From the NCBI GenBank assembly GCA_001275005.1, contig JWZX01002257.1, positions 1 through 21,145 on the forward strand: a DNA stretch of 21,145 bases, in the 5' to 3' direction. The position numbers and the translations under genes were made by a program. This document shows positions 3,405-21,145 of the stretch, piece after piece. The notes beneath the pieces are model-generated. The model was given only the letters and a program-made list of their open reading frames with translations. It ran no database searches and had not been told where the DNA came from. How positions within the stretch are numbered: the first letter of the stretch is position 1; each line of letters begins with the position of its first letter. The DNA comes from Chrysochromulina tobinii. Taxonomy: Eukaryota > Haptophyta > Prymnesiales > Chrysochromulinaceae.

Positions 3405-3868
3405 TCAGGGCAAGAGCTTGCACAGACGGCCGAGGATGGGGAAGTCCCCATGGGTCACCGTGGCGCCTGGGTGGATGGTGCACAGCTGGTGCGCCTTTTG
3501 GAATTCGATCTGGATCGCCGAGATGCGGAAGCAGTTGCGCCCGACGTTGTTGCTCGTGCGCAGGGGGTCCTCGATGTACAGCGGGTCGAACCAGAAGCGA
3601 GTTGCGGGTGGCTGGCTCTCCGCGGGCCACTCGGGTGGAGTCGCGCCTCCGCCATGCTCCTGCCGCCACCGATGGGCCGCCACAGTTGACGTGGTACGGC
3701 GCGGCCGGTGCAGCGGCCAGTCGAAGCCCTGCCCGCGCGCGCCTACGCCTGCCGTGAAGGAGCTCGTCGCGGCTTGGGCGCCGTCTCGGGCGCCGAGGGC
3801 CGAGGGCAACGGACGTTGCTCGAGCCCAAGGCTGGGCGAGCTTGGGTCGAGAGGTGGGCACCAGTCAC
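3405..3868 (-). other. terminal exon with conserved IEDPL block and stop
   Basis: The exon encodes about 90 residues of low-complexity insert (beginning DWCPPLDPSSPS), then LYIEDPLRTSNNVGRNCFRI. That block matches the C-terminal TRF4 motif in which an Ile-Glu-Asp-Pro and a (N/D)-(N/D)-V-G-R sequence close the catalytic domain. The frame ends at TGA (3405-3407) after LCKLLP. Confidence 0.85.
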
Positions 3869-6800
3869 CTGCCTCGGCAGTCAGAGGGCAATCAGAGGGC
3901 AATCAGAGGGCCATCAGAGGGCAATCAAAGGGCAATCAAAGGGCGATTATATGGCACTCATATGGCAATCAGAGGGCCATCAGTGGGCACCAGTCACCTG
4001 CCTCAGAGGCGGGACGCGGCCGGCAGCTGTGTGGAAAGGCGGCCATGCCGGCGGTGGCACGTGGCTGCTGCCGCTGCTGCTGCCGCTGCTGCTGCTGCTG
4101 CCATTGCAGCTGCTCCTGCTGCTGTGCAGGCGGGCTGCCCTGCCGCTCGAGCTCCTGCTCATCCGGCGCCGGCAGCGACGCAGCAGCCCAACCACGTTGC
4201 GGCAGCTCCGCTTCCGCGAGGTGCTCCGCGAGATGTACCTGATGAAGGAGGTCATCATATAAGTCATCAGTGATCATCAGAGGTCATCAGAACTCCGCGA
4301 GGTGCACCTGATGAAGGAGGCCATCATGAGTCATCAGTGATCATCAGAGGTCATCAGAGCTCCGCGAGGTGCACCTGATGAAGGAGGCCATCATGAGTCA
4401 TCAGTGATCATCAGATGTCATCAGAGCTCCGCGAGGTGCACCTGCGAGAGTGCCACTGAAGGCTGCGACAGGTCCACACGCACTCTCGACGAGTGGTCGC
4501 GCATCAGAAACTCGCCCTCGCCGCGATTGCGGCACACAGAGACGCCCATGTTACGCGGATCAAAGGCGCGTCCATAAAAGTCGAGGAGGCGCACCAGGCG
4601 CGCTCCCAGGCAACGCTCGATGTCATCATGCCTGCTCTTGACTGCGCTTGGGCTTGGGCTTGGGCCGCTCACGCCCGCGCCCGCGCCCGCGCCCACGACG
4701 ACGCGCGCTCCCATCCGGTTGGACGCTGTGAAGGCGCCGCCGTGGGCGCGCTCGAGGTCGAGCGCCTCCCACTGCAGGAAGCGAACCTGTGTGGACAAGA
4801 GAGGGCGCCGTGGTGAGCACTCGCATGCGAGGTCGAGCGCCTCCCACTGCAGGAGGGCGCCGCCGTGGGCGCGCTCGAGGTCGCCCAGTGGAGGAAGCGT
4901 ACGATGAGGAGCAGCAATAGTCATCAGTGGTCATCAGTGGTCATCAGTGGTCATCAGTGGTCATCAGTGGTCATCAGCAGCAGGAGGCGTACGATAAGGA
5001 GCAGCAGCCCGTATGAGGAGAGGCCGCCCAGGTACGGCTTGTCGAGCGAACGCTCCGCTAAGAACTGATATGAGGGAGGCAATCAGAGGTCATTAGAGGT
5101 CATCAGAGGCCTTCCGAGGTCATCATAGGTCATCATAGGTCATCATAGGCGGCTTTATTGATCGAGCGAATGCTCCGCAACGAACTGATGATGATGATCA
5201 TCAGCCCGCACCTGCTTGAGTACGAGTGTGAGAGGTTTGACCTCGGGGTGATGAGGGAGGCAATCAGAGGTCATCATCAGCATGCACCTGCTTGAGTACG
5301 AGTGTGAAAGGTTTGACCTCGGGGTGATGTGGGAGGCAATCAGAGGTCATCATCAGCATGCACCTGCTTGAGTACGAGTGTGAGAGGTTTGACCTCGGGG
5401 TGCTCGGCGAGAGTGCGTGAGACGAAGACGTTGGCGGCGAGTCCATTGTGAGCTTCGCCCTCAAAGGACACGTCGAGCCGCAATGGGATTTGCTGATGAG
5501 GGAGGCAATCATGGGGTATCAGTGGTCATCAGCAGCAGTCATCATGGACGCACCTGATGAGGGAGGCAATCATGGGTCATCAGACGTAATCAGACGTCAT
5601 CAGACGTCATCAGACGTCATCAGACGTCATCAGACGTCATCAGAGCTCCGCGTGACGCACCTGCTTCGGTGAAGCGCCCGCGACCACAAAGCGCGTGGCA
5701 AAGGTGACGATGGGTACGACCGCGTCGATCGTGCGCACCTGTGGGGCAGGGCGAGGCGCCGTGGTGAGCACTTGCATGCTGGAGCACTCGCGCCCGCGCC
5801 GATCGTGCGCACCGACTCGGGCACGATCCAGGACTGGTTGACCAGGCAACGAGCGAGCGATGCCTGCCAGGTCTCCTCGGGCAGAGCGTTGCGACCCTCG
5901 AGCGTACCTGTGGACAAGCGATGGCGCCGTGGTGAGCACTTGCATGCGAGGTCTCCTCGGGCAGAGCGTTGTGAATGGAGCGAGCGCACCTGGCGCCTCC
6001 GGTATCACGGTGGTCATCAGAGGTTATCAGAGATCATCAGAGGTCATCCGAGGTCATCCGAGGTCATCCGAGGTCATCCGAGGTCATCCGAGGTCGTCAA
6101 AGGTCATCAGAGGTCATCAGAGGCCATCAGAGGCCATCAGAGGTCATCAGAGGTCATCCGAGCGTACCTGGCGCCTCCGGCATCGAGGTGGTCGTGCGCA
6201 CCGGCGGCAGCGTGACGACCAGATCGATGTCCGAACCCGGCCGCATCAGGCCCGTGGCAAAGGAGCCGAAGGGCTTCACTTGCGCCCGTGGCCACAGGAG
6301 AGTCACCACGGAGCGCACCTGTGGGAGACGCGGAGCGCCGTGGTGAGCACATGCATGCCACGGGAGAGTGAGCGCGGAGCGTCGTGGTGAGCACGGGGGG
6401 CGTCGTGCCTTGCTGATGGCGGTCATCTGAGGTCATCTGAGGTCATCAGCGGCCGTGCCTTGCTGATGGCGGCCATAAGAGGTCATCAGAGGTCATCAGT
6501 GATCATCAGAGGTCATACCTTGCTGATGGCGGCCGAGTGCACCGGTGCATGCTTGGCCAGGTGGGCATTGCACCGTGCCTCGTACCTGTGGGGAAGGGCG
6601 AGGCGCCGTGCTGAGCACTTGCATGCTTGGCCAGGTGGGCATGCACCATGCCTCGTACCGACGAATCTCATCAGAGAGCTGTGCGTAGGTGGAATGTATT
6701 GGGACCATCGCCGCCTTGGCCGCGAGCCCCGACAAGTGTGCGGCGCACGTCGAGAGGCGCGCCGCAGCGGCGGCCAGCTGCGATGCGGCGTCGTATTGAG

Positions 6801-9800
6801 CGGAGACGGCGCCCATCGCGCCCGAAGTGGCCCAAGAGGGCAAGCGCTCGGGCTGGCGCATCAGGCTACCCTCGCGTGTGCCCCCCTCCATGAGGAAGCT
6901 CAGCCCTGTCGGCAGGGCGCCGTGGTGGGCGGCAGCGGCAAGGGCGGGCCCGAGAGAGCTCGAGAGGGAAAGCACCTGAAGAAGGAGGCAATCAGGAGGT
7001 CGTCAAAGGCACTCAAGAGGCCATCGGAGGTCATGAAGCAGCTCGAGAGGGAAAGCACCTCCTCCTCGAATCGCTGGATGGGCTGTTGATGAGGGAGGCA
7101 ATCAAGGGAGTCATCAGAGGTCATCATGGGAAAGCACCTCCTCCTCGAATCGCTGGATGGGCTGTTGATGAGGGAGGCAATCAAGGGAGTCATCAGAGGT
7201 CATCATGGGAAAGCACCTCCTCTTCGAAGCGCCGGATGGCTTGTTTGAGCGCCTCGTTCTCGGCAAGGACCACCTCCATCTCGGCTCCTCGCTCACGCCG
7301 GCCGCCACCGCGTGCGCTGGCTGCGGCCTCCTCAGCGCCTGGAGCTGTGCCGGCCGGGGCCGAGGCCGCCGCCGAGCCACCTGCTGTGAACACCTGCTGT
7401 GGAGGAGCGGCGGGGGTTTTATCCGAGGCGCCGACCGGTGCGGCCGCGCTGAGCACCGGTGAGGCCGCGCTGTGAACACCTACTGTGAACGCCTGCTGAT
7501 GAAGCGACGAGGCCGCGCTGTGAACACCTGCTGTGAACACCTGCTGATGAAGCGACGAGGCTGCCATCGTGAGCACGGCAGGTGGAACGACGAACGGTGA
7601 GGGCGAGCGCGGCGGTGCGGGCGGGAGCGCCATGTTGAGCGCGGCAATCGGTACGATGAGGGGCGACGGCAGGGCGAGTTTGGATGAGGCGGAGGGCACG
7701 ACGCGCGGAGTCGAGGGCGCGGAGGTGGGCTGCGGCGGCGACGTTTGCGAGGACGTGAGCGAGGCAAGTCTCGGCATCGGAGCCTGTGGGGAACGCGAGC
7801 CCTCCATCGGAGTGGACACGGGGAGGGCCGATGACGTGTCGCGTAACGGCTTCACGGGGAGGGCCGATGACGTGTCGCGTAACGGCTTCTCAGCCCGTAA
7901 CGGCTGGGCTGGGCGGAGCTGGTCGCTGCTTGCCGGCGCTTCGACGATCCTTGGGCGCGACATCGACTCTCCTTTGCCTCCGTGCCGCGCACTGAACGAC
8001 AGGCTGCGCGACAGGCTGCGCGGCGTCGCCGGCTCCTCCGGTGTGAATGGGGATGCATGCATGCACGCCGGTTCCTCCGGTGGCGGCGGCTGCCCCGAGC
8101 GCTGCCCCGAGCGCGGCGGCGCACTTGGCGCAAAGGGGGGCTCGAGATCAACCTCTTCGCCTGCCGCTGAAACGGCCGCAGCCTCCCGAGGGCGCACCGG
8201 TAGATCGATCGCCTCCTTGAGGCTCTGTGGGGGGCCTGCATGCATGCATGCATCCCCATCTGGGCTCGCGCTCATCTGTGGGGTGGAGCGGCCTGCATGC
8301 ATGCATGCATCCCCCCCATCTGGGCTCGCGCCAGCAGGCACTGCATGCATGCATGCATCCCCCCCATCTGGGCTCGCGCCAACAGGCACTGCATGCATGC
8401 ATGCATCCCCCCCATCTGGGCTCGCGTCAGCAGGCACCTCGACGGTCGCCTCGCTTAGATGAGGAGCTTCACACCTCAGTTGCTCTTCACACCTCAGATG
8501 GTCTTCACACGAGGAGTCGAGCCCGTGCGCGCCGCGTGGCGAGGGGGCGCCGCTGCTCCTCGTGTGAAAACCATCGTGTGAAGTCGAGCTGCTCCCGCTG
8601 CCCATAACCGACGTGCATGCATGCATCCCGCTGCCCACAGCCGACGTAGGCACCAGCATGGGCAACTCGGCCGTGATCGGGTGCAGCTCGGCCGGCGTGG
8701 ACACCTCAGCCGGCGCCACTTCATTCTCTCTCGACGGCACGCGCGCCGGCGAGCGTGGCGAACGAGGTGGCGTGCACACGGCGGGCGAGCGAGGTGGCGA
8801 GCGAGGTGGCGAGCTCGGCGAGCGAGGTGGCGAGCTCGGCGGCGCGCTCGGGAGCACGCTCGGCGGCGGTGGCCGGCGAGGCTCCTTGAACAGCTCATCG
8901 CGCAGATGAGCGTCGAGGTGAGCGTCGAGGGCGGACAGGAGCAGCTCGGGCGACGCATCCGATAAGGAGTCAGGGTCACGGCTGCTGGCGTCGGGGCTGG
9001 GCGCCGCCCGGCTGCTCGCGCCGCTGTGGGGGGGAGACAGGCCGCCGTGGTGCGCACTTGCATGCCAAGCCTCCCGGCTGCTCGCGCCGCACCGGGCGCT
9101 GATGCTGAAGCTGCGAGTGCTCGCATTCCTGTCGTCGGCGGTTCGATCGGTTTCGTTAGTTCGATCGGTTTCGTTAGTTCGATCGGTTTCGTTAGTTCGA
9201 TCGGTTTCGTTAGTTCGAACGGTTTCATGAGTTCGATCGGTTCGATCGGGGAGGCTGCGGGGGCTGCCCCATAGGCCTTCGAGAGCTCGATCTCGGGCGC
9301 CATCTCGGGCGCCATCCCATAGCCCTTCCAGAGCTCGTTGCATTGCCGCCGCGTCGACGTGTTGCACGAGGAAGGGCGACCCAAAGGCGGCACCATAGCG
9401 GGCCGGCGCGTGGGAGCCTTCTAGGAAGCTTCCGAGGCCACCTTCCTGGAAGCTTCCGAGGCCACCTTCCTGGAAGCTTCCGAGGCCACCTTCCTGGAAG
9501 CTTCCGAGGCCACCTTCCTGGAAGCTTCCGAGGCCACCTTCCTGGAAGCTTCCGAGGCCACCTTCCTCGCCGTGCTCACCCCACCGACGCTCAAAGGCGG
9601 ACGCGTCGGCCCACCGGTGCTGGAAAGAGCTGAAGCGCATCACGAGCTGTTGCATAGGGTCGAGGTGCGCCATCGTGGGCGCCATCGTGGGCGCCATCCC
9701 GGGCGCCGATGGCGCCACCAAGGAGGTCCCGGGAGACGCGCCATCGTAAGGCGGGGGCGTGGGCTGGCTGTGGGGAAGCAGGGAAGGTTGGAAGCCGTTG

Positions 9801-12436
9801 ACGCCCTCTGCCATCGGGGCCAGTGGTGGGGGGGCTGTGGGGAAGTGACTCGTCGGCGGTTGGAAGCCGTTGACGCCCTCTGCCATCGGGGCCAGCGGGG
9901 GCGCCGTCACGGGCGCAAAGCCACTCAGCAGCGGAGACGATCGTGGGCCCAGCGCCGCCGGAAGCACGGTGCCCGCGACGACGCCCAGCGGCGCCGGCAG
10001 CACGGTGCCCGCGACGACGCCCAGCGCATCAGCCGCCTCGTCGTCGGGAATCAACGGGGGCGGCCCCGCGGTGGGCGTCGGCACCGGCGAGGGCGCCGTC
10101 CTGGGCGGGGAGGGCGCCGTCCTGAGCGGCGAGGGCGCCGTCCTGGGCGGGGAGGGCGCCGTCCTGGGCGTCGGCGCCGGCGAGGAGTTCGCGAGGATGT
10201 GCGCGAGGGCTGCCTTGTGCGGCGGGCCATTCGCCCACGAATTGACGTGACTCGAATTGACGTGACTCGAGTTGACGTGACTCGAATTGACGTGACTCGA
10301 ATTGACGTGACTCGAATAGACGTGACTCGAGGGGGGCGTCGTCACGGGCGCCCACGAATTGACGTGACTCGAGGGGGGCGTCGTCACGGGCGCCCACGAA
10401 TTGACGTGACTCGAGGGGGGCGTCGTCACGGGCGCGTCTGCGGCCTCATTACGGCCTCGTGAGGTAGAGACGGGCGCCGAGTCGGGCGCCGCGTCGGGCG
10501 CCGCAATGGGCGCCGTGGTGGGCGCCACGTCGATCGTGCGACTCGAGGCGGCGGCCGCGACGAGCGCCGTCTTGGGCGCCCGGCTCGGCGCGCGTGCGGC
10601 GCGCGTGCTGGGCGCCGTGCTGGGCGCTGCTGAAGCGGACGGTGACGTGGCACCGGCTGGGAGCGTGCCAGCCGTGGCTGACGGCGACGCGAGCGCCGAC
10701 TTGAGCACGCGCCCCTTGATGGCGGCGCGAGAGAGCAAGCTCTGCAGGGCCGCCGTCTCTTCCGCCTCCAGAGCCATGCCCACAAGCTCCGCCTCCTCGT
10801 CCGCCGCCTCGGCCGCCGCCAGCGCCGCCGTTGCCGCCTCCGTCGCCAGCGCCGCCGTCGCTAGTGGCACCTCCACCGCCTCCACCGCCTCCTCCGCCCT
10901 CCTCCTCCGCCGCCGCGTCCTCCTCCGTGTCTTCGCCATCGTCCTCGGCGGCGTGAGCGCTGTCCTGAGCTCCTCAGCCACCAGCTCCGCACCCAAACTG
11001 ACGGCATGTGCTTCGTCAAGGCGCGCGCCCAGATTGCGGCAGATCGAGTCGAAGCACGTGCCAAGACGGGCGAGAGGGCGCTCATACACATTCGACAGGA
11101 ACGCCTCCGCCGCCGCGAGGGCGCCGTCCTGGGCGGGCAGGGCGCCGTCCTGGGCTGGGTGGGCGCCGTCCTGGGCGGGGTGGGCGCCGTCCTGGGCTGG
11201 ATGGGCGCCGTCCTGGGCTGGCCCGCGAGCCGTCTCACCTACCGCGCGCGAGACGGAAGGGCGTGCGCCGTCCTGGGCACCGCACAAGCCCGCGCGCACC
11301 AGCCGCAGCGCCCCTGCCGCATCGCCACACACGCCCTCGCGGTAGATCGAAGAGGCGAACCAACCAGCGAGCGCGCTCCCTCCGCATTGCCCAAGCTGCC
11401 TATGGACATGCCCATGGCTATCAAGAGGTCCATGCCAGCGTGCACCGAGGCCCTGCGACCAGTCCAAATTAGGACGCGACCAGTCCAAATGAGGAGCGCC
11501 CACGAGCGCCTCGAGCAGCCGTGCGAGCATGGTCACCTCAGGCACCGTCGACAGCGCGTCCGACGCGGCGATCTCGGCGAGCCGCCCCGTGAGCTCGGCG
11601 GTGGTGCGATTTCCCCGCGTGAGATCGCGGCGGCGCTGCGTGAGCTCGGTGTGAATCTCGGTGTGAATCTCGGTGTGAATCTCGGTGTGAATCTCGGTGA
11701 CCCATGTGATGAGCAGCCGCATGCGATCTCGCGCGGGGAGATCGCACCACCAGCCGGCAGGGACGCGGCGCGGCGGCGGCGGCGGCGCAGGCACGGTCGT
11801 GCGCGTGAGCTTGGCCTGCAAGTCGGTGAGGATCAGCAGTTCGATGCGTGATGCGAGGTAGGCGCCAGCGCTCCAAAACGAGCGGCCCTGCAGCCACTTG
11901 GTCTTTGCGTCCGGCGACGCAGCGGTCGCGGGCGCGTCGTGTGGCGCGGTGGCAAAGCGGCCGGCGCTGAGAAGCGTGAGCGCGCGCCACAGCTGAACTG
12001 GGCAGGCCAGCAATGAGCGGTCCAGGCAAATCGTGTCGAGCGGCTCAGCGGCATCGCACAGGCGCACAGCTGATAGAAGGAGAGCCTCTGCCTCACGCCG
12101 AGCCTGCTCCGAGGCGCTGTCGGGATAGAGGTCGACGCTCGCCATGCTGCCGAGCGATGGGTGCAGCGTATGCGTCATGTAAAAGAAGTCGCCATCGAGG
12201 CTCTCCTGAGCCTCGGCCGCTCGGCCGCTACGTCGCCTCTGCATGTGGTGGACCTCAGCATCGAGTGTGTAGAAAAACCCAGGACCTTGCTGCGCCCATC
12301 GTGCGAGCATGCTGCGGAACCGACCGACCCAAGCAGCGTTGGTGTAGCGCAGCACTGCAAAGCGCTGCTCGATCGGACAGAGCTCGAAGCACTCGAGCGC
12401 GAAGCGGGAGAAGGCCTGTTGCTTTTTGCTTGCCAT
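3405..12436 (-). CDS. TRF4: TRF4/PAPD5-type non-canonical poly(A) polymerase with giant N-terminal region (12-exon model)
   Basis: The proposed exons in transcription order are 12436-9093, 9023-7217, 6975-6659, 6585-6519, 6318-6168, 5907-5813, 5738-5661, 5492-5364, 5064-4993, 4786-4442, 4238-3998 and 3868-3405. They join in phase without a stop to give 2,369 residues. TRF4-family enzymes add short oligo(A) or mixed tails to RNAs for nuclear surveillance or mRNA stabilisation. Catalytic signs are GSFATGL plus SDIDLVV (Asp about 1875 and 1877) and RLDVSF (third Asp about 1960). TRF4-type blocks follow in order: TLVLKQ, FLAERSLDKPYLGGLSSYG, LVRLLDFYGRAFDPRNMGVSV and LYIEDPLRTSNNVGRNCFRI. The family is usually 500-800 residues, so the first about 1,700 residues are extra. 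The start at 12436 (MASKKQQ) is the first in-frame ATG; the frame continues to 12535 without one. Splitting into two genes is possible but no junction demands it. Confidence 0.82.
3869..3997 (-). other. 129-nt intron flanked by a direct repeat
   Basis: Donor GAGGCAG|GTGACTGGTGCCCAC and acceptor GAGGCAG|GTGACTGGTGCCCAC are identical over 22 bases. The body is TGATTGCCCTC/TGATTGCCCTT repeats, a variant of the decamer in the other introns. There is no introner module. Removal joins SEAG to DWCPPLD in phase. Confidence 0.8.
3998..4238 (-). other. glutamine-rich insert exon
   Basis: The exon encodes about 80 residues beginning VHLAEHLAEAELPQRG and running into a CAG/CTG-type glutamine tract (about 4068-4130). 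It interrupts the PAP-associated region before the conserved IEDPL block and is unlike other TRF4 proteins. The trinucleotide run suggests slippage expansion. Confidence 0.75.
4239..4441 (-). other. 203-nt intron: array of three complete intron-like units
   Basis: Units begin at 4441, 4374 and 4307, each with GTGCACCTCGCGGAG, and each ends CTTCATCAG (67, 67 and 69 bases). Each alone has a GT start and AG end. The next exon begins with a diverged copy of the same start (GTACATCTCGCGGAG). The unit bodies are TGATGA decamers. Confidence 0.82.
4239..4445. repeat. 67-bp tandem repeat, three copies
   Basis: The units are nearly identical and each runs from GTGCACCTCGCGGAG to CTTCATCAG on the minus strand. 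The third unit is 69 bases and slightly diverged. Confidence 0.9.
4442..4786 (-). other. PAP-associated domain exon
   Basis: This 115-codon exon continues the central helix (VRFLQWEALDLE). It then has an Ala/Gly/Val and Ser/Pro insert, and then the PAP/25A-associated core: CLGARLVRLLDFYGR followed by AFDPRNMGVSV. It ends SQPSVALSQ. The insert of about 45 residues between the two parts is not typical of the family. Confidence 0.85.
4787..4829 (-). mobile_element. introner-like module copy
   Basis: The core is GCATGCGAGTGCTCACC with one change, and it ends TGTCCACACAG. It is flanked by a 25-base direct repeat of exon sequence ending GCGCTCGACCTCG. Confidence 0.58.
4787..4992 (-). other. 206-nt intron with nested exon copies, decamers and module
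   Basis: It starts CTTATC|GTACGCCTCC and ends TGTCCACACAG|GTTCGCTTCC. It contains three partial copies of the next exon's first 20-60 bases, five perfect TGATGACCAC decamers (about 4920-4975) and the shared module (GCATGCGAGTGCTCACC). Both junctions are phase 0 in a conserved helix. Confidence 0.8.
4993..5064 (-). other. central-domain exon (FLAERSLDKPYLGGLSSYG)
   Basis: This 24-codon exon matches the strongly conserved TRF4 segment in which a Gly-Gly-Leu/Ile-Ser-Ser-Tyr motif contacts the nucleotide. It starts after CATATCAG and ends at CTTATC|GTACGC. Both junctions are phase 0. Confidence 0.85.
5065..5363 (-). other. 299-nt intron with triplicated exon end
   Basis: It starts CTCAAGCAG|GTGCATGC and ends CATATCAG|TTCTTAGCGG. 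Two further copies of the upstream exon end (reading EVKPxTLVLKQ) recur at 76-base steps (ends at 5288 and 5212). A decayed copy of the next exon start (TTCGTTGCGGAGCATTCG) at about 5166-5192 runs into an in-frame TAA. Decamers fill the rest. Confidence 0.78.
5202..5400. repeat. 76-bp tandem repeat, three copies
   Basis: Each copy holds the end of the 5364-5492 exon (reading EVKPxTLVLKQ), a GTGC donor and a TGATGATGACC segment. Copy ends are at 5364, 5288 and 5212. Only the first is joined to a complete exon. Confidence 0.88.
5364..5492 (-). other. exon with third catalytic aspartate
   Basis: This 43-codon exon begins QIPLRLDVSFEG and contains NGLAANVF, matching the TRF4 block 'hDhSF...NG..AA' where the third catalytic Asp sits. 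It ends in TLVLKQ, the helix that leads into the family's FL..R block in the next exon. Its last about 40 bases are copied twice more in the following intron. Confidence 0.85.
5493..5660 (-). other. 168-nt decamer intron
   Basis: It starts CCGAAGCAG|GTGCGTCACG and ends CTCATCAG|CAAATCCC. Its body is TGATGACGTC decamers (about 5580-5640) and TGATTGCCTCCCTCATCAG blocks. It has no copy of the next exon. Its first about 24 bases resemble the start of the 4239-4441 intron (CGCGGAGCTCTGATGAC). Confidence 0.78.
5739..5779 (-). mobile_element. introner-like module, best-preserved copy
   Basis: The coding-strand core is GCATGCAAGTGCTCACC followed by ACGGCGCC, then 10-13 variable bases and CCCCACAG. 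It is flanked by copies of GTGCGCACGATCG, which would be a target-site duplication under an insertion model. It matches the copies at 5908-5947 and 6586-6626 almost base for base. Confidence 0.6.
5739..5812 (-). other. 74-nt introner-like intron
   Basis: It starts GAGTCG|GTGCGCACGATCGGCG and ends CTGCCCCACAG|GTGCGCACGATCGACG. The exon start is copied at the intron start with one mismatch in 19 bases, followed by a short spacer and the shared module. Removal joins IVPES to VRTIDAVVPIVTF, a junction inside a conserved TRF4 block. Confidence 0.82.
5908..5947 (-). mobile_element. introner-like module copy
   Basis: This copy has the same core GCATGCAAGTGCTCACC and ends CTTGTCCACAG. It is flanked by a 23-base direct repeat of exon sequence ending GAGGAGACCT. 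Confidence 0.6.
6010..6160. repeat. decamer array (TGATGACCTC on minus strand)
   Basis: About fifteen tandem copies of a 10-base unit, with GGATGACCTC and TGATGGCCTC variants. It is the longest of several such arrays and lies entirely within one intron. Related arrays lie at about 3880-3985, 4918-4978, 5085-5155, 5575-5645 and 6420-6515. Confidence 0.9.
6168..6318 (-). other. nucleotidyltransferase catalytic exon
   Basis: This 151-base exon carries the signature of polymerase-beta-like nucleotidyltransferases. It reads LLWPRAQVKPFGSFATGL, then P-G-SDIDLVV with the two metal-binding aspartates. The spacing of the GS motif and the two aspartates matches TRF4/Cid1 enzymes. It starts after ...TCCCACAG and ends at GCGCCAG|GTACGC. 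Confidence 0.88.
6319..6358 (-). mobile_element. introner-like module copy
   Basis: The core is GCATGCATGTGCTCACC with one change, and it ends GTCTCCCACAG. A diverged second copy (GTGCTCACCACGACGCTCC) lies about 20 bases upstream on the coding strand. Confidence 0.55.
6319..6518 (-). other. 200-nt intron with decamers plus introner module
   Basis: It starts AAG|GTATGACCTC and ends GTCTCCCACAG. It holds TGATGACCTC-type decamers, two further copies of the upstream exon end (GCCGCCATCAGCAAG), a degraded copy of the downstream exon start, and the module (GCATGCATGTGCTCACC). A second partial module lies at about 6376-6394. Confidence 0.78.
6586..6626 (-). mobile_element. introner-like module copy
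   Basis: The core is GCATGCAAGTGCTCAGC with one change, and it ends CTTCCCCACAG. It is flanked by a roughly 40-base copy of the following exon. Confidence 0.58.
6586..6658 (-). other. 73-nt introner-like intron
   Basis: It starts GTACGAGGCATGG and ends CTTCCCCACAG. Its first about 40 bases are a near-perfect copy of the first 40 bases of the next exon (GTACGAGGCACGG...). The remainder is the shared module (GCATGCAAGTGCTCAGC). Removal joins LSDEIRR to YEARCNAHLAKH in phase. Confidence 0.8.
6976..7216 (-). other. intron made of 79-bp tandem units with two possible 24-nt microexons
   Basis: Donor GAGGAG|GTGCTTTCCC and acceptor CTTCTTCAG|GTGCTTTCCC share the same first ten bases. Two 79-bp units inside each hold a 55-base GT...CAACAG intron followed by 24 bases encoding PIQRFEEE (7138-7161 and 7059-7082). 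These are copies of the end of exon 2 and are in phase. Either one 241-base intron or three introns with two microexons is possible. Confidence 0.7.
7059..7240. repeat. 79-bp tandem repeat
   Basis: Two full units plus the parental segment, each ending in the FEEE-coding sequence followed by GTGCTTTCCC. Spacing is exactly 79 bases (7216, 7137, 7058). Confidence 0.9.
7810..7890. repeat. 33-bp direct repeat, two copies
   Basis: The unit GGGAGGGCCGATGACGTGTC plus CGTAACGGCTTC occurs twice in tandem. On the minus strand it encodes KPLRDTSSALPV twice. The unit is a multiple of three bases. Confidence 0.85.
8237..8440. repeat. 48-bp tandem repeat with TGCATGCATGCATGCA core
   Basis: Four copies start at 8237, 8294, 8342 and 8390. 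Each has a 16-17 base self-complementary TGCATGCA run followed by CCCCATCTGGGCTCGCG. On the minus strand they encode SPDGGDACMHA repeats in frame. Confidence 0.9.
9024..9065 (-). mobile_element. introner-like module, copy 1
   Basis: On the minus strand it reads GCATGCAAGTGCGCACC, then ACGGCGGCC, then a pyrimidine-rich end and CCACAG. Other copies lie at 6586-6626, 6319-6358, 5908-5947, 5739-5779 and 4787-4829. The CTCAC within it resembles a branch point, and the copies share an end at a splice acceptor. It encodes no protein. The introner assignment is inferred. Confidence 0.55.
9024..9092 (-). other. candidate 69-nt introner-like intron inside long open frame
   Basis: On the minus strand it starts GTGCGGCGCGAGCAG and ends CCCCCACAG. 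A 17-base copy (CGGCGCGAGCAGCCGGG) sits at its start and again right after it. Its 3' part carries the shared module GCATGCAAGTGCGCACC. At 69 bases it keeps frame whether removed or read through (SREAWHASAHHGGL), so an open-frame search hides it. Splicing is inferred from the five sister introns that carry the same module. Confidence 0.6.
9146..9249. repeat. 18-bp minisatellite (TTCGATCGGTTTCGTTAG)
   Basis: Four perfect copies and a diverged fifth. On the minus strand it encodes DRTNET repeats in the polymerase N-terminal region. Confidence 0.92.
9417..9567. repeat. 24-bp minisatellite, six copies
   Basis: AAGCTTCCGAGGCCACCTTC recurs at 24-base steps from about 9426. On the minus strand it encodes EGGLGSFQ. 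The copies are nearly identical, which suggests recent expansion. Confidence 0.92.
10087..10175. repeat. 24-bp Pro-coding repeat
   Basis: About four copies of GAGGGCGCCGTCCTGGGCGG. On the minus strand it encodes PPRTAPSP units. A similar motif recurs at 11118-11225. Confidence 0.82.
10237..10435. repeat. 15-bp and 45-bp nested repeats
   Basis: GAATTGACGTGACTC is repeated about six times, encoding HVNSS on the minus strand. It is then embedded in three longer units with GGGGGGCGTCGTCACGGGCG, encoding HVNSWAPVTTPPS. The short unit was captured in a longer repeat. Confidence 0.9.
11105..11225. repeat. AQDGA-coding minisatellite
   Basis: GGGCGCCGTCCTGGGC is repeated at 18-21 base steps about six times. 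On the minus strand it encodes AQDGA(H/L)P repeats. Confidence 0.88.
11646..11700. repeat. 12-bp minisatellite (GTGAATCTCGGT)
   Basis: About 4.5 copies encode TEIH repeats on the minus strand, inside the otherwise folded-looking N-terminal part of the polymerase gene. Confidence 0.92.

Positions 12437-20216: not shown

Positions 20217-21145
<929 letters not shown>

Follow-up and report, generated by a model that had tools for sequence, protein, structure and literature searches.

How does a single gene come to hold introns that carry copies of the exon lying just downstream of them? The question is raised by a stretch of 21,145 nucleotides from the haptophyte Chrysochromulina tobinii (GenBank assembly GCA_001275005.1, contig JWZX01002257.1, forward strand; hereafter the window), in which a gene for a TRF4/Cid1-type nucleotidyltransferase is interrupted by 11 introns. 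Among named organisms, the best matches came from Prymnesium parvum (70% identity over 62% of the queried part) and Pavlovales sp. CCMP2436, in line with a haptophyte source. The original prediction, made from the sequence alone, described ten of these introns as beginning with or containing a copy of the start of the next exon, and proposed that they were gained either by duplication of a segment containing AG|GT or by insertion with target-site duplication. Our comparisons of this and many other copies argue for insertion: we put at roughly 80% the probability that these are introner-type spliceosomal introns, gained when an element corresponding to the 3' half of an intron enters an exon with a long duplication of the target. 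The origin of introns is a long-standing question, and most published introners have been explained as cut-and-paste transposons with short duplications. Among the copies sampled here, the duplications are several times longer and variable, and some copies are recent enough to line up donor, target, or empty allele.

Two repeat families recur in the introns of the TRF4 gene. Family A is defined by the 25-mer GCATGCAAGTGCTCACCACGGCGCC followed by a pyrimidine tract and CAG, and family B by a GATGACCTCT minisatellite ending GATTGCCTCCCTCATCAG. Family A (0-2 mismatches in the 25-mer, then pyrimidine tract and AG) is present in six of the 11 introns (9024, 6586, 6319, 5908, 5739, and 4787), a GATGACCTCT-type minisatellite or close variant in eight, most of them with an end like GATTGCCTCCCTCATCAG, and both families in three. 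The gene and its introns are as follows.

3405..12436, minus strand: host gene, TRF4/Cid1-type nucleotidyltransferase; 12 exons, 2,369 amino acids; assigned from the spliced open reading frame and from Pfam and PDB matches.
9024..9092, minus strand: intron, family A; 25-mer core at 9041-9065 with 2 mismatches; 9069-9089 copies exon 9003-9023, a 21-nt stretch with 1 mismatch that no control equaled.
6976..7216, minus strand: intron, family B, stacked units; end of the upstream exon and start of the next exon both copied; 19/19 nt; tandem units of 79 nt.
6586..6658, minus strand: intron, family A; core at 6602-6626 with 1 mismatch; the exon copy begins at base 1 and contains a 1-nt indel; 23/23 nt, equaled by no control.
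6319..6518, minus strand: intron, mixed; family B repeats with a copied piece of the upstream exon, then a copy of the next exon's start (a 25-nt stretch with 4 mismatches, its score of 15 reached by 0.5% of controls), then an A core at 6334-6358 (2 mismatches).
5908..6167, minus strand: intron, mixed; family B minisatellite, exon copy, then an exact A core at 5923-5947; 34-nt stretch, score 26.5, no control equal.
5739..5812, minus strand: intron, family A; exact core at 5755-5779; 5791-5812 copies the exon's first 22 nt with 2 mismatches, no control equal.
5493..5660, minus strand: intron, family B; the 11th, outside the ten of the original prediction; required for the frame; no exon copy.
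5065..5363, minus strand: intron, family B; 76-nt units (copied exon end plus minisatellite); internal copy of the next exon's start, a 23-nt stretch with 3 mismatches.
4787..4992, minus strand: intron, mixed; family B repeats, two next-exon copies, and an A core at 4804-4828 (1 mismatch); 31-nt stretch, 1 mismatch.
4239..4441, minus strand: intron, family B; three near-identical units of 67 nt, each an exon copy plus element.
3869..3997, minus strand: intron, B-like minisatellite insert; AG and GT both from duplicated GAGGCAGGTGACTGGTGCCCA.

The exon copies were evaluated separately for each intron, by setting its best ungapped match to the start of the downstream exon against up to 200 random coding 60-mers from the same gene. 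All ten introns of the original prediction scored above the 95% control level, with best stretches of 15-34 nt; for seven of them no control equaled the real score, and for 6976, 6319, and 5065 about one control per 200 did. Intron 5493-5660 yielded no exon copy, as its best score of 6.5 was equaled by 42% of controls. The presence of a next-exon copy in every listed intron is thus upheld, as is its internal position in 6319-6518 and 5065-5363. The claim that the other eight introns start with their copy holds from base 1 for 5739 and 6586, but in 9024-9092 the copy starts at base 4, in 6976-7216, 5908-6167, and 4787-4992 the piece at base 1 is short and the long copy internal, and in 4239-4441 the start belongs to a stack of copy-and-element units rather than to a single copy. 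In 3869-3997 the duplicated stretch also crosses the splice site, reading ...GAGGCAG|GTGACTGGTGCCCA at both sides with the minisatellite between, so that both AG and GT would derive from the duplication. An insert of family A, family B, or a B-like kind is found in all ten introns and supplies the AG in nine; no intron consists of duplicated exon alone, and in only one do both splice sites come from duplicated exon.

Removal of all 11 introns leaves a single frame of 7,110 nt whose sole stop is terminal, and the spliced protein carries PF22600, PF01909, and PF03828 (palm, nucleotidyltransferase, and PAP-associated domains) and matches, by sequence, PDB 3nyb (yeast Trf4) and fission-yeast Cid1 structures. 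Alignment within the TRF4 family, which had been cited in favor of the splice sites, does back them: against P0001, a 612-residue relative encoded by an uninterrupted open reading frame on a 3,298-nt contig (56% identity by search), eight of the nine junctions within the compared part fall in aligned columns, with a 7-residue gap beside junction 4239 and a gapped, variable stretch at junction 5493-5660. A further uninterrupted relative, P0003, is continuous across the positions of introns 4787, 4239, and 3869, and its own start resembles a translated intron repeat at a different place. The junctions are thus supported by the open frame and further by P0001. The protein segment LSQPSVALSQVHLAEHLAE, adjoining intron 4239-4441, contains PSVALSQ and a doubled HLAE that are both absent from P0001 and P0003 in the alignment, so the event at this intron may have added codons. 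The first TRF4 coding exons (window 7461-11699) are also rich in tandem duplications, whose periods of 9-72 nt are mostly multiples of three and overlap the size range of the exon copies in the introns.

Both families extend far beyond this gene. Across 53.15 Mb of genome there are 2,196 occurrences of the A 25-mer at up to 3 mismatches (327 exact) and 3,936 of the B end at up to 2 mismatches, whereas whole-genome searches with reversed-pattern controls for both words returned 0 matches; these figures count words rather than confirmed introns, and tandem units are counted repeatedly. Such numbers exclude the idea that the inserts are ordinary exon repeats. The suggestion that so many stages in one gene are rare does not survive for this genome, since words of the two families number about 6,100 across its 53 Mb.

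To describe the anatomy of the copies, family A was sampled at 99 of the first 100 listed exact places (30 loci, L008, and 60 stretches) and family B at 40 stretches chosen from 100 listed. A scan of the sampled DNA plus the window gave 126 distinct A copies with at most 4 mismatches and sufficient flank, 97 of them exact, after 16 copies too close to an end, 29 duplicates, and locus L001, which repeats the window, had been left out. An exon copy was counted as anchored when it lay upstream of the element and matched the downstream exon from its first base, with a score of at least 10 (A) or 11 (B). A first-pass fuzzy matcher missed some diverged copies, finding 3 of the 6 A cores in the window, and the B sample and the same-contig pairs rest on it; with that incomplete matcher, 74 of 103 A copies showed the layout described here.

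A candidate pyrimidine-AG follows in 115 of the 126 A copies, and 82 of these 115 have the order exon copy, element, AG, exon (65/87 exact and 17/28 diverged copies), as against 2/562 (0.36%) in a swapped-exon control. Together with the random 60-mers, this control excludes chance or low complexity as the source of the exon copies. The duplicate begins with GT in 58 of the 82 cases and with GC in nine. In 76 clean cases (six tandem or over-long ones removed) it measures 11-57 nt (median 27.5), a mean share of 36% of the intron. These introns are 78.6 ± 8.2 nt long, with the 5' splice site 36 ± 8 nt ahead of the A element. Similarity among family members, which in introners comes close to both splice sites, here extends to the 3' site alone, and the initial 36 ± 8 nt are mostly host exon copy. 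Duplicate length and the rest of the intron are negatively correlated (-0.67), a trade-off that is expected if splicing requires a certain length. For family B, an exon copy of 14-60 nt was found at 30 of 52 picked 3' ends (control 0.8%), three of the positives being stacked units of the window gene. Within family A, copies on the same contig are barely more alike in element and tract than others (mean distance 0.146 vs 0.155). Pfam domains cross spliced junctions in three of four proteins tested, namely DSPc in L013 (junction at residue 293; match 200-332), ERCC4 in L035 (89; 47-214), and JmjC in L009 (295; 214-327); the fourth gave an F-box match only, away from its junction. Judging by the domains that run across them, the junctions in L013, L035, and L009 are real.

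Evidence for insertion also comes from an allele that lacks the element. In IMG/VR the A 25-mer is matched exactly once, on contig L151, which is phage-like except for its last 375 nt of algal sequence; this algal end, DNA of a second strain, is identical to G000:C608 in 364 of 373 columns (97.6%). The L151 allele reads ...GCCTGA|GTGCGAGCTCGTGGCGAGCGTTACC|GGCC, with a single GTGCGAGCTCGTGGCGAGCGTTACC; in the C608 allele these 25 bases are present twice, the second time with 1 mismatch, on either side of a 50-nt A element that ends in CCCCACAG, and GGCC follows. The duplicate in C608 begins with GT, and the gene at this site encodes kelch-type repeats. The two alleles together are the pattern predicted by insertion with a 25-bp target duplication, which is seen as such at this one locus; elsewhere we infer it. 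The expectation that absence of an intron restores a single exon copy is therefore borne out by one allele, but in another gene, and for TRF4 the relatives lacking some introns are compared at the protein level. Part of L151 (1-4180) looks like the viral portion of a chimera, phage-like genes being joined to algal DNA, and its algal end (4180-4554) departs from C608 in two more places, a CGAACCCTGA repeat (by 30 nt) and the interior of a second family A intron (by 14 nt). Thirteen other IMG/VR contigs with the 17-mer lack the element context, GCATGCAAGTGCTCACC matched L151 only, and the full family B end had no match in that database, in which two shorter B words matched 2 and 10 contigs.

Some copies sit in what appear to be coding exons. 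Seven A copies, in L026, L044, L046, L047 (both strands), L059, and L073, were classed as exonic by eye, and their repeat units (54, 66, 60, 54, 42, 48, and 63 nt, in that order) are all divisible by three, a regularity not fully independent of the choice of the class, which was picked by missing tract and AG and by open frames. Tandem units inside the introns of L008, L065, and L085 measure 85, 53, and 85 nt and are not divisible by three. The 25-mer is free of stops in its three forward frames, and the in-frame exonic copies speak against a requirement of splicing for insertion. No duplication was found around the copies in L033 and L014. Peptides added by the exonic 25-mer copies (L046, L059, L044, L026, L047, L073) include HASAHHGA, MQVLTTAP, and CKCSPRR.

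A mechanism that would produce this anatomy can be proposed. The element would be the 3' half of an intron, with a likely branch site, pyrimidine tract, and AG, of about 40-50 nt in family A and longer and minisatellite-bearing in family B. It would enter an exon at a break with nicks about 11-57 nt apart, and fill-in of the staggered ends would duplicate the exon between the nicks. The intron would then take its 5' GT and a mean 36% of its length from the upstream duplicate and its AG from the element, and the downstream duplicate would keep the coding sequence intact. Selection would retain insertions whose duplicate starts with GT (or GC) and whose total length can be spliced, or those that stay in frame. 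We infer the staggered break with fill-in, the copying of the element from existing introns, the filter by selection, and the branch site; blunt duplicates, like the one on C608, are most simply read as the product of such a break. More tentatively, introns in this alga may multiply without any transposon, their 3' half acting as a portable splice acceptor that is patched in at widely staggered breaks or by template switching, with the duplicated exon of the host as the new intron front. If that were so, spliceable or in-frame products would survive, and ordinary repair would be both an intron factory and a source of in-frame protein insertions. If insertion is confirmed, it would allow intron birth to be followed in nature by comparing strains of a single alga, with different, testable outcomes expected under DNA-repair, RNA-templated, and transposase models; in-frame unspliced insertions would also yield new protein sequence.

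Several observations weigh against insertion with a long duplication as a complete account. An anchored exon copy at a score of at least 10 is missing in 44 of the 126 A copies, those listed being tandem units, copies in exons, or cases whose duplicate is worn or missing. Duplicates shorter than about 10 nt are invisible at the threshold used for family A, and lowering the score to at least 7 raises the yield only to 89/115, with the control at 3.4%. The A sample is mostly exact and therefore the least worn (97/126, vs 327/2,196 genome-wide). The empty site is one locus on a chimeric metagenome contig, with the direction of change unrooted, and recombination between the repeats that removed the insert precisely, or a collapse in assembly, may instead account for the empty allele. 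The 75-nt insertion in C608 is itself in frame and free of stops, so that splicing there is likely rather than certain. Two introns, L011 and window 5493-5660, look copied from other introns without duplication, which argues that a second route exists.

The strongest rival is template switching during repair or replication, which we regard as possible though clearly short of even odds. A nascent strand would copy part of another intron at a microhomology and return 11-57 nt upstream, with no element enzyme involved and only spliceable or in-frame patches surviving. Such an origin would explain why the overlap with the GCATGC start is at least 2 nt at 12 of the 18 A junctions lying at or inside it, where a hand estimate gives about 2 by chance, and why the intron of L096 appears copied from that of L095, which lies on the same contig at a distance of 684 bp, with the old duplicate carried along and joins at ATTC and TGC. 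Shared 5' extensions of at least 8 nt are likewise found in 4 of 69 same-contig pairs vs 10 of 4,295 others, the exonic copies of L046 and L059 stop exactly at GGCGCC without the intron 3' end, and the TRF4 exons hold their many tandem duplications of mostly three-divisible length. However, the only event with a known empty site has microhomology at neither side, overlap at left junctions equals the cross-pair expectation without excess, the family B test covers six junctions only, and random switching would predict a less sharp 5' start of the element than the one seen at GCATGC.

Somewhat unlikely in our estimate is target-primed reverse transcription of excised intron RNA, starting from its 3' AG after a nick before GT, with copying halting near GCATGC and a variable second nick. 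It accords with a 3' end and an element-side duplicate boundary that are mostly fixed, with a variable 5' extent and duplicate length, and with the lack of inverted repeats. The spliced copies are also all in the sense orientation, in a set outside which unspliceable antisense copies would fall. Copies that lack the proposed start of synthesis speak against it: L046 and L059 end at GGCGCC, with a duplication but without pyrimidine tract and AG, and L096 is without the element's AG.

Transposition of whole introns by reverse splicing, without duplication, has been considered only as a minor second route, and even there it is unlikely. The intron at C19:6615-6690, which belongs to an unrelated gene, contains no copy of the exon that follows it and instead carries a TRF4 exon copy plus element; its best match outside itself is TRF4 intron 4787-4992, at 92% over 65 nt. 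Intron 5493-5660, without an exon copy, matches the start of intron 4239-4441 over 17 nt exactly. As both lack duplicates, whole introns can perhaps move too, but copying at the DNA level would give the same appearance. Donor searches for two introns with no clear duplicate were of little help to this route: that for L074 returned only the element common to others, and that for L098 two matches over about 60 of 65 nt at 86-87%, both to introns with exon copies of their own.

A cut-and-paste DNA transposon, such as a MITE (miniature inverted-repeat transposable element)-like introner of the kind proposed for most published introners, is disfavored and improbable here, even though the copy number is high, the element ends are fairly well defined, the site is duplicated, and the 5' splice site is co-opted. 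Transposase duplications are usually of fixed length. No terminal inverted repeat was seen at the family A ends, whose GCATGC...CCACAG is not complementary on reading the sequence, and the variable duplicates of 11-57 nt contrast with the 3-9 bp of published introners (PMC9860276). The other origin in the original prediction, a simple tandem duplication of exon sequence containing AG|GT, can be dismissed as a general explanation, since all ten introns carry inserted sequence and nine take their AG from it, although both splice sites of 3869-3997 do come from such a segment and stacked units stand in 4239-4441 and 5065-5363. Insertion with target-site duplication accordingly remains the better supported half of that prediction, with its 82/115 A copies, 30/52 B ends, and one empty site.

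Among published systems, introners are the category into which the insertions described here fit. As with the introners of Gozashti et al. 2022 (PMC9860276), the genome holds many similar introns in which the element brings the 3' splice site, the 5' site is co-opted, and coding sequence is kept. Those introners have target duplications of 3-9 bp, found in 49 of the 130 published families where a call was possible, and terminal inverted repeats in 72 of 177 families, and a published Chrysochromulina example has 4-bp duplications and an element that carries the 5' splice site (PMC9860276). Here, in contrast, duplicates of 11-57 nt form about one third of the intron, the A element of about 40-50 nt has no inverted repeats, and copies occur in frame in exons. 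What chiefly sets these introns apart from known introners is the long, variable duplicate that accounts for about a third of their length. A search of titles and abstract openings, in a collection lacking most subscription papers, turned up no introners described as having duplications of such length.

The Daphnia introns gained at staggered double-strand breaks (PMC4202315) resemble this system in the direct exon repeats flanking the insert, the repeated rounds at a site, and the presence/absence alleles; however, the Daphnia repeats are of 4-12 bp, and the insert here, between duplicates with a median of 27.5 nt, is a high-copy family. In gain by tandem duplication (PMC4974935; reviewed in PMC3443670), the 5' splice site likewise comes from a formerly exonic copy, and the potato case, in which the branch site, tract, and AG derive from the parental intron (PMC4974935), is a helpful parallel; here, however, the 3' half of an intron is brought from elsewhere. 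The introners of Amoebophrya (PMC7789003) are also repeated introns with direct repeats, yet their repeats measure 3-5 nt, they have inverted repeats of 8-20 nt, and their splice sites are non-canonical. Fungal stwintrons (PMC12403724) similarly appear as like introns at new sites, but seamlessly and with no target duplication. A survey of direct repeats near intron borders gives a mean of 11.4 bp (PMC11782384).

Two further observations concern the window itself. A beta-tubulin-like gene, recognized by eye at 20496-21145, has an apparent intron of about 270 nt in which neither element was noticed by eye. Across positions 1-21145, three words are over-represented: ATGCATGC occurs 27 times vs 1.7 expected, ACGGCGCC 19 times vs 2.4, and TGATGACC 25 times vs 0.7.

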